This document shows positions 15,108 to 20,985 of a stretch of 64,000 bases of DNA, piece after piece. The first letter of the stretch is position 1, and each line of letters opens with the position of its first letter. Below the pieces are notes generated by a model, which did no database searches, was not told where the DNA came from, and worked only from the letters and a program-made list of their open reading frames with translations. Both the position numbers and the translations under genes were made by a program. This DNA is from Methanosarcina sp. MSH10X1 (GTDB lineage Archaea; Halobacteriota; Methanosarcinia; Methanosarcinales; Methanosarcinaceae): the NCBI RefSeq assembly GCF_004099695.1, contig NZ_SCHL01000008.1:62001-126000 (forward strand), read 5' to 3'.

Positions 15108-16178
15108 TCAAAATCTGAACTTATCTTTATTTTTTCTCATAATCCTAACCAGGGAAAGCATTACAGGAACTTCCACAAGCACACCCACTACAGTAGCAAG
15201 GGCTGCTCCCGAATTCATCCCGAAAAGGATGAGAGCCACTGCTACAGCCAGCTCAAAGAAATTGCTCGCTCCTATGAAAGTAGAGGGAGCAGCTTCTCTA
15301 TAGGAAATTCTAAGGTATTTCGCTCCTGCATACCCAATCCAGAAGATAAGGTAAGTTTGCAGTACAAGAGGGATTGCAATCAGGAGGATATGTAGAGGAT
15401 AATTTATAATATTCTCTCCCTGAAAAACAAAGATAAGGATAAGAGTAACTAAGAGACCAAGAGGGGTTACCCACTCAATTCTTCTTATCAGCCTGTTCTC
15501 AAACCAGGTAATGCCTTTTTTCCTTATCACTACCTGCCTTGTCAGCACAGCCAGACCGAGCGGCAGTGCTACATAAAAAACAACGGAAACGAATATAGTC
15601 ATCAGAGGCACAGGAAAATCGGTTGTGACCCCCAGGAGAAATTTCCCAAGAGGAGCAAAGAGAATCAGGATAATAAGATCATTTATTGATACCTGAATAA
15701 GTGCATAATTGATATTAGCCTTTGCAAGATAGGTCCAGACAAGTACCATTGCCGTGCAAGGGGCAAGTCCTAGCAGGATCATGCCTGCGATATACTGGTC
15801 CCGTAAATCCGCAGGAATAAACGATGCAAAGATTACACGCATGAAGAGCCATGCAATGAAAGCCATGGTAAAGGGCTTTACTATCCAGTTTACAGCAAGG
15901 GTTAGCAGAAGGGGCTTTAAATTTGCTTTAACATTCAGGATCTCTTCAAAGTTTATTTTCAACATGATAGGGTACATCATAATAAGAAGTACAACAGCTA
16001 CAGGTATGGAGACATTCGCAAGCTCGATTCTCCCTAGGGTATCCGCAAAACCCGGGAAAACGTAGCCGACTGCGGTTCCCAGTACTATGCAGATGGCAAC
16101 CCAGATAGAAAGATATTTACTGAAGAAGTCGAGTTCCCGTTCCTCCTCAAATTCTATTTTCTCTCTTTCTCCGGACAT
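15108..16178 (-). CDS. acr3: Acr3-type arsenite efflux permease
   Basis: A 356-residue membrane protein with about ten transmembrane helices in the bile acid/arsenite transporter fold. The Acr3 signature GLAPCTAMVLVW contains Cys141, the conserved membrane Cys that Acr3 pumps need. It exports arsenite (and possibly antimonite) using the membrane potential. The charged N-terminus (EREKIEFEEERELDFF) is cytoplasmic. Its ATG immediately follows the stop codon of the upstream UspA gene, so the two are translated from one message. No arsR or arsC is adjacent. Confidence 0.93.
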   Translation of the reverse strand: MSGEREKIEFEEERELDFFSKYLSIWVAICIVLGTAVGYVFPGFADTLGRIELANVSIPVAVVLLIMMYPIMLKINFEEILNVKANLKPLLLTLAVNWIVKPFTMAFIAWLFMRVIFASFIPADLRDQYIAGMILLGLAPCTAMVLVWTYLAKANINYALIQVSINDLIILILFAPLGKFLLGVTTDFPVPLMTIFVSVVFYVALPLGLAVLTRQVVIRKKGITWFENRLIRRIEWVTPLGLLVTLILIFVFQGENIINYPLHILLIAIPLVLQTYLIFWIGYAGAKYLRISYREAAPSTFIGASNFFELAVAVALILFGMNSGAALATVVGVLVEVPVMLSLVRIMRKNKDKFRF

Positions 16179-17054
16179 TTATTCTCCCTTCCTTCTTTCT
16201 CCCTCTCTTCCCCTGCTTGCCGGGATTAAAAGTACAGGTTTTATGGTTTGCCGGAGTACTTTCTCTACGGTACTTCCAAGCAGCAGTTCCTTCACTTCTC
16301 CCCTCCCTCTGGCAGTCAGTATAATAAGGGTAATATCTTCTGTTTCGGCAAGCCTGGTAATTTCTTCAGACGGAACCCCTTGAGGAATGCTGTACCTGAC
16401 ATTAACTCCCGAAAAACGTTTCCCTAGCTCTTGAAGTCGGCTGATTGTTTCTGCCCTCTGCTCGTCAAGCAGATCGAAATCTTTTATATTATCTATAACA
16501 TGGACAAACACAATCTCTTTCAGGATTTCAGTAAACTCCTGAAGCTGCTCAACCGCCCTTATGGATTCTTTTGAGAAATCAAGAGGCACGAGAATTCTGG
16601 AAAAAGTTGTTCGGCAGGCTTTCCCGTAAACTTCCTTTCCTTCTCTCAGAACGTTATATTTTTCGATAAGAAGCATCCTTTCGGATCTGTGAGTTATATA
16701 TTCCGTAGTTCTTCCCAGCAATCTGCCCTTTATAAGTCCTTCAGTGGTTGCTCCCATTATGATACAGTCAACGTGGTTCTGGTTGGCAACCTCTATTATA
16801 ACCTTTTTGACCTCTCCGACCACAACCAGTGCTTCGGCTTCAAGCTCAAGGGCTGTGGCAAAGTCCGCATAATGTTCAATCTCTTCTTTTGCATGCCTCT
16901 CAAACATCGGGGCAAGCCCCTGAGCTTTATGGATATCTATCACATGCAGCAGAATGACTCTCTTTAGTCCGGCATTTTTCAATTCCCCTATGCAGCCGAG
17001 CAAATCTTCCGTTTCTATGGTGAAATCAGTAGGAACAAGCACTCTTTCAATCAA
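16179..17054 (-). CDS. Tandem-domain universal stress protein (UspA family)
   Basis: A 291-residue protein with two UspA domains, about 1-140 and 150-285. Each begins with the hydrophobic strand and Asp (RVLVPTDF, RILVPLDF) and ends with a G-x9-GS/T nucleotide-binding segment (ARGRGEVKELLLGST in domain 2). Such proteins bind ATP or AMP and respond to stress. The frame starts at a TTG (17054) behind a GGGGG run; a GTG at 17042 is an alternative. It is directly joined to acr3, which suggests co-expression under arsenite or general stress. Confidence 0.85.
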   Translation of the reverse strand: MIERVLVPTDFTIETEDLLGCIGELKNAGLKRVILLHVIDIHKAQGLAPMFERHAKEEIEHYADFATALELEAEALVVVGEVKKVIIEVANQNHVDCIIMGATTEGLIKGRLLGRTTEYITHRSERMLLIEKYNVLREGKEVYGKACRTTFSRILVPLDFSKESIRAVEQLQEFTEILKEIVFVHVIDNIKDFDLLDEQRAETISRLQELGKRFSGVNVRYSIPQGVPSEEITRLAETEDITLIILTARGRGEVKELLLGSTVEKVLRQTIKPVLLIPASRGREGERRKGE

Positions 17055-18030: not shown

Positions 18031-18054
18031 TATCAATATCTAATGATATTGATA
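18031..18054. repeat. Perfect 10-bp inverted repeat
   Basis: TATCAATATC (18031-18040), TAAT loop, GATATTGATA (18045-18054). It lies between the miniprotein gene and the DGC gene, which converge, and could act as terminator or operator. Confidence 0.45.
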
Positions 18055-18164: not shown

Positions 18165-18548
18165 TTACTCGGACTGGAGTATATCCCCAACTTTCTCAAG
18201 AACAAGAGCGATTTCTTCGTCCTTCAGATCCATATCTCTCGTTTTCTTAATCCCCAGCTCGGAAATTATTATGTGTCGGTCTACGTTAAAGCCTGCAAGC
18301 TCAAGGGTTTTTCTGGCGCAATTCACCGGACAACCGTCAATAGCCATGATCTTTTCGGAAGATTCTGCGGATTTCATAAGACCTGGCGCTCGAGCTCCAA
18401 TTCCCACTGTGCACATCATGTTTCCGACTTCCTGCCGGGCAAGCTCGATTGCAATTTTATTTGAAATCTGTCCAGTGTTCGAGGCTCCCGCACAGGGAAA
18501 AATTGCGATATTAGCTGCTCCGCATGCACATTTCATATTTTCTGCCAT
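18165..18548 (-). CDS. DGC-motif putative zinc-binding protein (second copy)
   Basis: A 127-residue paralog of the protein at 281-694. It has an N-terminal CAC pair (Cys7, Cys9), Cys19 in PCAGASNTG, Cys46, and the family motif Asp71-Gly72-Cys73 with Cys77 (AIDGCPVNCA). The extra cysteines at the N-terminus are absent from the other copy. It is the third gene of a permease, thioredoxin, DGC operon whose promoter carries two palindromes, so it probably binds or senses a metal or metalloid together with those partners (inference). Confidence 0.8.
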   Translation of the reverse strand: MAENMKCACGAANIAIFPCAGASNTGQISNKIAIELARQEVGNMMCTVGIGARAPGLMKSAESSEKIMAIDGCPVNCARKTLELAGFNVDRHIIISELGIKKTRDMDLKDEEIALVLEKVGDILQSE

Positions 18549-18624: not shown

Positions 18625-18867
18625 TTATTTTTTAATCCATTTTTTAATATCATCCACGCTTGGGACTTTTCCTGCGACCTTAACATCCCCATCAATAACG
18701 AGAGCAGGCGTGACCATGACCCCGTATGCAAGAATTTTGTCGAAGTCCTCTACCTTTACGATCTCAGCATCTACACCTGCTTCCTTAACGGCTTTCTCAG
18801 CTATTTCTTTCGTCTTTTTACACTTTGCACATCCCGTGCCCAGTACTTCGATCCTCATATTTTTCAC
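18625..18867 (-). CDS. Small CxxC thioredoxin-like redox protein
   Basis: An 80-residue protein of the MTH895-type mini-thioredoxin family. The active site is GTGCAKCKK (Cys13, Cys16) after the first strand, and VMVTPALVIDG contains the cis-Pro loop of the thioredoxin fold. It would exchange disulfides in the cytoplasm. It sits between the permease and the DGC gene. Such proteins are often encoded beside COG0701 permeases, where they may reduce or deliver the substrate. Confidence 0.88.
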   Translation of the reverse strand: MKNMRIEVLGTGCAKCKKTKEIAEKAVKEAGVDAEIVKVEDFDKILAYGVMVTPALVIDGDVKVAGKVPSVDDIKKWIKK

Positions 18868-18973: not shown

Positions 18974-20026
18974 TTACGCAATCATAGTCCCGAATATGTA
19001 GCCTGAGATAGTTGCAATCAACACAACCAGGAAAATATAACTCATCCCTTTTTTTACTCCCATTACCCTGTTGATTACAATCATACTCGGAAGACTGAGT
19101 GCAGGGCCTGCAAGCAGCATAGAAAGAGAAGGGCCTTTTCCCATTCCAAGCAGGGTAAGAGCGTTGATTATTGGCACCTCCGTAAGAGTGGAGAAGTACA
19201 TCAGGGCTCCTGTAATGGATGCAACAAAGCTGGAAGCAAAGGAATTTCCTCCTACGAAATATGCTACAATCTCTTTTGGGAGCACTTCAACTATAATGCC
19301 TGCGAAAAATACCCCTATCAGGAGCAGAGGGGTAATTTGTCGGATCAGGAACCAGGTCTCACCCATCCAGCTTTCAAGTTCCTCTTTTGAGAACCACTTA
19401 AAAGACAAATATGCAGTAAGCCCTATCAAGGGTGTCCAGGCAATTATCTGAGTTATGTATTTCCATCCCCAACCGGACATAATTTCCGGAGCCACAAGAA
19501 CAATAATGAGCAAAATGAAAAGCTGAGAACTATATCTATGCTCTTCTTCTCCAAAAGTTTTTATGGAACTGCGTTCCGTTTCTTTCTTTTCGTAAACTAG
19601 AGACATTGTCATGCCTATAAGTACTGAAAGAAGAACAGCCGAAAAAGCTCTTGCAGCCCCAAGGTCATATCCCAGGATTTTTGCGGTATAAACAACTGCA
19701 AGAATATTGATTGCCGGGGCAGAGAATAGGAAAGTGGTTGCAGGGCCTATACCCGCCCCTCTCTTGTATATTCCCGCAAAAAGAGGAAGAGCCGTACAAC
19801 TGCAGACTGCAAGAAGGCAGCCTGAAGCCGCAGCTACGGTATATGAGATGTATTTTGGGGTATCTGCTCCAAAGAACTTCAATACGGATTCTTTGGAAAA
19901 GAGGGAGGCTATCGCTCCAGCCAGAAAAAAGGCAGGTAGAAGGCACATCAAGACATGCAGGGCCAGATATTCCTGCAGTGACTGAACCCCGACTGATATA
20001 AGATATAGGAAATAGTCCAGACTCAT
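18974..20026 (-). CDS. COG0701-type permease (ArsP/YraQ-like)
   Basis: A 350-residue membrane protein with about eight to ten hydrophobic segments in two repeated halves. The signature GCLLAVCSCTALPLFAGIY holds Cys75 and Cys77, typical of the DUF318/COG0701 permeases that include the organoarsenical exporter ArsP. The second half has the matching segment ALMYFSTLTEVPIINAL. Substrate is not proven; arsenicals, other metalloids or thiols are possible. First gene of a three-gene operon with a well-defined promoter. Confidence 0.85.
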   Translation of the reverse strand: MSLDYFLYLISVGVQSLQEYLALHVLMCLLPAFFLAGAIASLFSKESVLKFFGADTPKYISYTVAAASGCLLAVCSCTALPLFAGIYKRGAGIGPATTFLFSAPAINILAVVYTAKILGYDLGAARAFSAVLLSVLIGMTMSLVYEKKETERSSIKTFGEEEHRYSSQLFILLIIVLVAPEIMSGWGWKYITQIIAWTPLIGLTAYLSFKWFSKEELESWMGETWFLIRQITPLLLIGVFFAGIIVEVLPKEIVAYFVGGNSFASSFVASITGALMYFSTLTEVPIINALTLLGMGKGPSLSMLLAGPALSLPSMIVINRVMGVKKGMSYIFLVVLIATISGYIFGTMIA

Positions 20027-20050
20027 TTTTTCCAGATCCTGAATTGTTAT

Positions 20051-20066
20051 TTCAAATATATTTGAA
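20051..20066. promoter_or_regulatory. Perfect 16-bp palindrome, downstream operator
   Basis: TTCAAATATATTTGAA is fully self-complementary. It lies between the TATA-like element and the permease start, about where transcription should begin, which suits repression. The TTCAA...TTGAA pattern is like ArsR/SmtB operators. Confidence 0.7.
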
Positions 20067-20070
20067 GAGA

Positions 20071-20087
20071 GCTATATAAAATTTCCT
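20071..20087 (-). promoter_or_regulatory. Core promoter of the permease operon
   Basis: Read on the minus strand, AGGAAATTTTATATAGC gives a BRE-like purine stretch followed by a TATA box. It lies exactly between the two palindromes. Confidence 0.6.
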
Positions 20088-20107
20088 ATTTCAAATTATT
20101 TTGAAAT
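20088..20107. promoter_or_regulatory. Second palindrome, upstream operator
   Basis: ATTTCAAA (20088-20095), TTAT, TTTGAAAT (20100-20107): perfect 8-bp arms. The centre is 39 bp from the first palindrome, and both share TTCAAA/TTTGAA arms. Confidence 0.7.
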
Positions 20108-20282: not shown

Positions 20283-20663
20283 ATGGTTAAAATCGAATCA
20301 AGATGCGTCTCCAGAAAAAGGTGTTTTACATACACCATTCTCCTGTTTATCCTTGCAGGTATTTTTGAGATCGGGGGAGGATACCTTTTGTGGCTATGGC
20401 TGCGTGAAGGCAGGGAACTTATCTTTGCGCTTTTGGGAGCAATTGTCCTGTTTTTATATGGAGTCGTGCCTACTTTCCAGCCGTCTTACTTCCACAGGAT
20501 ATATGCAACTTATGGTGGCATTTTTGTTGTCATGTCCCTTTTATGGGGCTGGATCTTCGATAAAATCCCTCCCGATACTTATGATCTCATAGGCGCCCTG
20601 ATTATTCTTATCGGAGTGTCAATTATTTACTACTGGCCAAGAGAGGATGAGAACATTGATTGA
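20283..20663 (+). CDS. YnfA/UPF0060-type small membrane protein, first of a pair
   Basis: A 126-residue protein with four hydrophobic segments. Family signatures are FEIGGGYLLWLWLRE, GVVPTFQPSYFHRIYATYGG and an acidic loop DKIPPDTYD before the last helix. YnfA proteins belong to the SMR-like drug/metabolite transporter superfamily and probably work as dimers. The N-terminus has four basic residues (K3, R7, R11, K12), suggesting it faces the cytoplasm. It overlaps the next gene by 17 bases, and the two are clear paralogs. Confidence 0.85.
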   Translation: MVKIESRCVSRKRCFTYTILLFILAGIFEIGGGYLLWLWLREGRELIFALLGAIVLFLYGVVPTFQPSYFHRIYATYGGIFVVMSLLWGWIFDKIPPDTYDLIGALIILIGVSIIYYWPREDENID

Positions 20664-20985
20664 TCCCGCTCTTTCTCTTGCTTTATTTTTTCTGGCTGCC
20701 CTTTTTGAGATCGGAGGAGGTTATTGTATCTGGCTCTGGCTAAGGGAGAATAAAGGAGCAGCATTCGGGCTGCTCGGAGGACTTACATTAGCGATTTACG
20801 GGATAATTCCTACTTTCCAGCCTGCGCACTTCGGCAGGGTTTATGCTGCCTACGGAGGAATCTTTATTGTTTCGTCCCTGATCTGGGGAGTTATTGTCGA
20901 TAAGAAAAATCCCGATAAATATGAAATTATAGGGGCATTGATCGCACTTGCAGGTGTGATGATAATGTTCTACGTGCCTCGTTAA
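20647..20985 (+). CDS. YnfA/UPF0060-type small membrane protein, second of a pair
   Basis: A 112-residue paralog of the preceding protein, with the same four-helix layout and motifs (FEIGGGYCIWLWLRE, GIIPTFQPAHFGRVYAAYGG, DKKNPDKYE). Its N-terminus is short with one Arg, and it ends YVPR. Paired paralogs of SMR-like proteins often form heterodimers with opposite membrane orientation; the different terminal charges here are compatible with that, but this is inference. Translation is probably coupled to the first gene. Confidence 0.85.
   Translation: MRTLIDPALSLALFFLAALFEIGGGYCIWLWLRENKGAAFGLLGGLTLAIYGIIPTFQPAHFGRVYAAYGGIFIVSSLIWGVIVDKKNPDKYEIIGALIALAGVMIMFYVPR

Follow-up and report, generated by a model that had tools for sequence, protein, structure and literature searches.

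The permease-thioredoxin-DGC operon and its neighbors

The window, a 64-kb stretch of contig C54 of genome G000, carries on its minus strand an operon whose first gene (18974-20026) encodes an ArsP_1/COG0701 permease (PF03773, E 1.9e-80). This gene is followed by a mini-thioredoxin of the MTH895/ArsE family (18625-18867; TIGR00412, 112.9 bits relative to a cut-off of 62; PF13192) and a DGC domain protein (18165-18548; PF08859, E 6.9e-36). These matches bear out the three gene calls made in an earlier sequence-only reading of the same DNA. A universal stress protein gene (USP, 16179-17054; PF00582) lies 1.1 kb below the operon on the same strand and is probably transcribed separately from it. 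Beside it is the gene for an ACR3 family arsenite efflux transporter (15108-16178, minus strand; TIGR00832, 379 bits, cut-off 283). The USP-ACR3 pair is also present in the operator-containing cluster of G060 and in other relatives. Recognized ars genes are thus located both in and near the operon: the ArsE-family thioredoxin, the ArsP_1 permease, and ACR3. The permease resembles the SO_0444 and SaoE exporters of the ArsP/COG0701 group in its Pfam ArsP_1 domain and in its grouping with an ArsE-type thioredoxin and ACR3, but it scores below the NCBIfam equivalog cut-offs for both SO_0444 (copper/zinc) and SaoE.

Divergent from the operon are two overlapping tandem genes for YnfA/UPF0060 small membrane proteins (20283-20985), and a YnfA gene is also found near the same promoter in relatives (L111, L113, and L118). 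Just past the DGC gene is a palindrome with 10-bp arms, TATCAATATC-TAAT-GATATTGATA (18031-18054), which resembles either a terminator or an expanded version of the ATATCAA-type site described below. A second, paralogous cluster on contig C44 of the same genome (L108:9006-11810) contains genes for an ArsR protein (ArsR-C), permease2, an ArsE thioredoxin, a DGC protein, and a DUF6951-like protein.

Two palindromes flank the core promoter

Read along the minus strand, the promoter consists of a palindrome, the BRE AGGAAA (20087-20082), the TATA box TTTTATATA (20081-20073), a second palindrome, and a short leader ending at the permease ATG at 20026. The upstream palindrome, ATTTCAAATTATTTTGAAAT (20088-20107), has the form ATTTCAAA-N4-TTTGAAAT, with 8-bp arms around a 4-bp core (ATTTCAAA-TTAT-TTTGAAAT; center 20097.5), and lies directly upstream of the BRE. 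The downstream one, TTCAAATATATTTGAA, is a perfect palindrome of two 8-bp arms at 20051-20066 (center 20058.5), which extends to 20049-20068 in a 20-bp register. The coordinates given for both palindromes in the earlier reading are exact, as is the distance of 39 bp between their centers; the TATA box, described there as exactly between them, is centered at 20077, 1 bp off the midpoint at 20078. Archaeal promoter geometry would place the transcription start at about 20050-20052, 25-27 nt below the TATA box, where the downstream operator in its 20-bp register overlaps or abuts it. Both dyads flank the BRE/TATA segment (20073-20087), and with the downstream one at the predicted start they overlap the core promoter in the manner of ArsR/SmtB operators.

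The palindromes are under selection

Across its 64 kb, the window holds just nine perfect palindromes whose arms reach 8 bp or more around a core of 4 bp or less. In sequence drawn from a Markov model of intergenic composition, about 0.05 close pairs of such palindromes are expected per 64 kb. A stronger argument against chance comes from comparison across genomes. In the promoters of the orthologous permease from 15 Methanosarcina genomes, both palindromes are kept in 14; the downstream one is present in all 15, and the upstream one is missing from G025 (L007) alone. The arms are 96% and 94% conserved, relative to 32% for the 100 bp upstream, a difference that demonstrates selection, and the intervening BRE/TATA stretch is 93% conserved. 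The 4-bp core of the upstream palindrome drifts (68%) while its arms are retained, as expected of an operator.

A search for the double site (39-bp spacing, at most three mismatches) in 112 Methanosarcinaceae genomes found it in 36 of them, representing 6 of 14 genera, whereas a reversed-pattern control gave one match; variants spaced 37, 38, or 40 bp apart are also present. Where the flanks could be read, nearly all double sites precede a permease1, ArsE thioredoxin, or TauE/SafE gene. The 18-mer TTTCAAATATATTTGAAA, with at most one mismatch, was found in 62 genomes.

Within G000, searching for the same palindromes, as the sequence-only reading had proposed, was informative for the longer form of the site only. 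The extended 20-mer with at most one mismatch has two matches and its control none, but the single 16-mer with up to two mismatches occurs at seven places compared with eight for its control and is not enriched. The operator is nearly private to the permease promoter in this genome; its one further copy lies at C44:49652 (L108:15653-15672) and has a single mismatch; it is about 90 bp upstream of a weakly matching CMD/AhpD-like gene, and a similar sequence is found at G016:C61:43465. The lack of 16-mer enrichment is what one would expect if the palindromes had arisen by chance or if AT-rich DNA simply formed hairpins or terminators here. We give that explanation practically no credence: the conservation footprint already refutes it, the spacing is nearly fixed at 39 bp over six genera (37-40 bp in a few cases), close pairs are expected at the low rate given above, and the upstream copy precedes the BRE and so should stay untranscribed from this promoter.

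The half-sites match the ArsR/SmtB operator consensus

The published operator consensus for the ArsR/SmtB family is TAxAxTCAAATAxxTATTTGAxTxTA (PMC6555750). TTCAAATATATTTGAA is an inverted repeat with the TCAAATA/TATTTGA half-sites of this consensus, as is the family consensus, TTATTTCAAATATATTTGAAATAA. The two half-sites abut (TCAAATA-TATTTGA) and do not have the canonical 2-bp spacer (12-2-12). Since this spacer is missing and the members of the published consensus are themselves variable, we describe the sites as ArsR-type and not as canonical. Besides the half-sites within an AT-rich dyad, they share with the arsRBC, cadCA, smt, and other operators of the family a core-promoter position and linkage to metalloid transport genes; they differ in lacking the spacer, in that a pair of dyads spaced 39 bp apart encloses an archaeal BRE/TATA, and in that the regulator gene is unlinked in the genome of the window. 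In relatives, arsR genes share the operator region, and single operator copies precede the ACR3 transporter gene in G076, G082, and G088 (L262, L268, and L273); arsenate-reductase-like genes adjoin ACR3 in L262 and L268. Taken together with the half-sites, these findings make the identification of the palindromes as ArsR/SmtB-type operators, originally suggested by their arms and spacing, well supported.

The operator is conserved over genera in which the neighboring ArsR genes differ, and the survey of regulators took in part of the DNA-binding families; a family-wide regulator of another type, such as an MsvR, TrmB, MarR, or Lrp protein, could therefore be considered. We think this quite unlikely, given that the half-sites equal the ArsR/SmtB consensus (PMC6555750) and that the regulator genes recurring at the operator are all of the ArsR type. 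MsvR of Methanosarcina acetivorans offers a parallel, as a repressor from a methanogen whose wing-helix domain is ArsR-like and whose boxes lie at the BRE/TATA, but it is a larger protein with a V4R domain, and both of its boxes lie upstream of the TATA box (PMC3729527). It was rejected on its motif, TTCGN7-9CGAA (PMC3729527), which differs from the TTCAA...TTGAA of the window sites.

A candidate repressor encoded at an unlinked locus

The earlier reading held that the window encodes no ArsR-type repressor, and a PF01022 search of the whole of contig C54 indeed gave no match. Its further proposal that the regulator acts from elsewhere agrees with this result and can be narrowed to a specific candidate among the several short ArsR proteins encoded elsewhere in G000. 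This is the protein encoded at C14:45123-45485 (PF01022, HTH_5, 47.4 bits, cut-off 22; metalloregulator subfamily NF033788, 72.9, cut-off 55), which has SmtB and CzrA among its best structure matches and is unlinked to the operon. It is the only member in G000 of a clade composed of two sister groups, clade B and its relative in Methanosarcina, L039. The two groups join with support of 97/95 in a tree that has few columns and some long branches and serves as a guide. Their recognition helix, S[A/K]LSYHL, is unlike that of the other ArsRs compared. A CxC motif in helix 3 is invariant in all aligned members of both groups, and the helix-3 cysteines of the C14 candidate are predicted to be capable of binding As(III).

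Genetic linkage connects this clade with the operator in other genera. In seven genomes a clade-B arsR gene adjoins the operator, with three different operons on the opposite side: permease1 in five genomes, an MFS gene in G073, and Trx-DGC-permease2 in G083. In most of the seven, a DUF6951 gene and arsR diverge from a shared operator region. The cluster of G060 combines an L039-clade arsR and the operator with two permeases, Trx, DGC, USP, ACR3, and DUF6951 genes. The candidate repressor clade lies beside its target in some genera and probably operates from a remote locus in others. The promoter of the C14 candidate gene itself contains no palindrome of this kind.

A B or L039 gene is present in every genome that has the double site, and the co-occurrence of site and clade gives a Fisher p of 1e-4, calculated over genomes that are related and in some cases incomplete. 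The clade is present without a recognized double site in G002, G015, and most of genera g7 and g10. Among Methanosarcina genomes that do not have operator sites, no L039 gene was found in G013 or G018, and stop codons interrupt the gene in G012 (C9, L276) and G024 (C3, L277). One of the G024 stops is a TAG, a codon that this genus could translate as pyrrolysine; the neighboring frame also looks disturbed. As judged from these sequence comparisons, the phylogenetic profile is consistent with clade B/L039 supplying the regulator but is not decisive.

The operators might instead be bound by another ArsR of G000, above all ArsR-C (C44:45501-45794). ArsR-C also has a CxC motif, and every Methanosarcina that bears the double site carries it. 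Its gene forms part of the permease1 operon of at least four species (G001, G008, G010, and G020), and this operon membership made it the first candidate. In G000 it adjoins the paralogous permease2-ArsE-DGC cluster. It was dropped on two grounds: the palindrome in its own promoters in several species, and in the G000 permease2 promoter, is of another type (ATATCAA-N6-TTGATAT), and genera g10-g12 have the double site but lack ArsR-C. Control by one of these other ArsR proteins is accordingly rated as unlikely. ArsR-A, whose gene lies some 0.8-0.9 kb away from permease1 in G022 and G038, is without a close relative in G000, which bears the sites. When promoters were read by eye, that of ArsR-D showed ATATCAA-type sites, and those of ArsR E and L035 showed other palindromes. 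Compared with ArsR-A, C, D, and E and with MsvR, all of which fit worse, clade B/L039 appears to be the best candidate regulator.

The second operator type was observed at the ArsR-C, ArsR-D, and permease2 promoters (L038:1799-1818 and 2015-2034; L113:15900-15940; L043:1144-1163). It shares a TCAA-N6-TTGA core with the window operator and differs from it in the flanks.

A model for repression and induction

We consider it probable that the palindromes are operators of a dimeric ArsR/SmtB-family repressor, most likely the C14 ArsR, from which the operon would be derepressed by a thiol-seeking metalloid. DNA binding, repression, the inducer, and the identity of the acting protein in G000 are inferred from the arrangement as follows. 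One repressor dimer would bind directly upstream of the BRE, a second would occupy the transcription start together with the downstream edge of the core promoter, and the two would fence the BRE/TATA segment and exclude TBP, TFB, and RNA polymerase. Binding of As(III), Sb(III), or another ligand that likewise seeks thiols to the CxC of the repressor, in G000 most likely the product of the unlinked gene at C14:45123-45485, would then release the DNA and allow the permease-thioredoxin-DGC export operon to be transcribed.

A position upstream of the BRE is one at which archaeal activators can bind, and only the upstream dyad is lost in G025; the sites could thus be activator sites or a mixed switch in which the upstream dyad recruits and the downstream dyad represses. 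ArsR/SmtB proteins are repressors in most cases, and the start region lies under the downstream dyad, making such an arrangement very improbable. With repression by an ArsR-type protein as the preferred reading, the earlier account of this locus was right in its observations and largely right in their interpretation.

ArsR control of metalloid export is a known kind of system, and the instance in the window appears to be undescribed: no report of the operator was found in the open-access literature searched. Metalloid sensing in methanogens has hardly been described. The present analysis adds a set of targets across the family and puts a name to one candidate repressor, orthologs of which occur in genetically tractable species and include L280 of M. 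acetivorans, and it names the geometry of two dyads fencing an archaeal BRE/TATA.

Additional targets of the operator

Operator copies also precede genes of other kinds. In L256, L260, and L267, from other genera, they lie before a gene for an FmdE-domain protein, with the gene for a TauE/SafE-like exporter next in line, a hint that the regulon may have another branch. Another copy precedes a DUF169-permease operon in L255, and others precede methyltransferase genes in G009 and G020. It is conceivable, though doubtful, that a methanogen-specific ArsR clade and its double operator constitute a family-wide regulon for a signal other than inorganic arsenite, such as reactive sulfur or methylated metalloids that the methanogens themselves produce, which would account for the TauE, FmdE, methyltransferase, and thioredoxin genes among the targets. 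Pattern matches in L252-L254 look like chance and were set aside. At positions 182-201 of the window, ATTTCAACCTTTTTTGAAAC has near-identical counterparts in G006, G014, and G016 and could represent a conserved element that belongs to a different gene.
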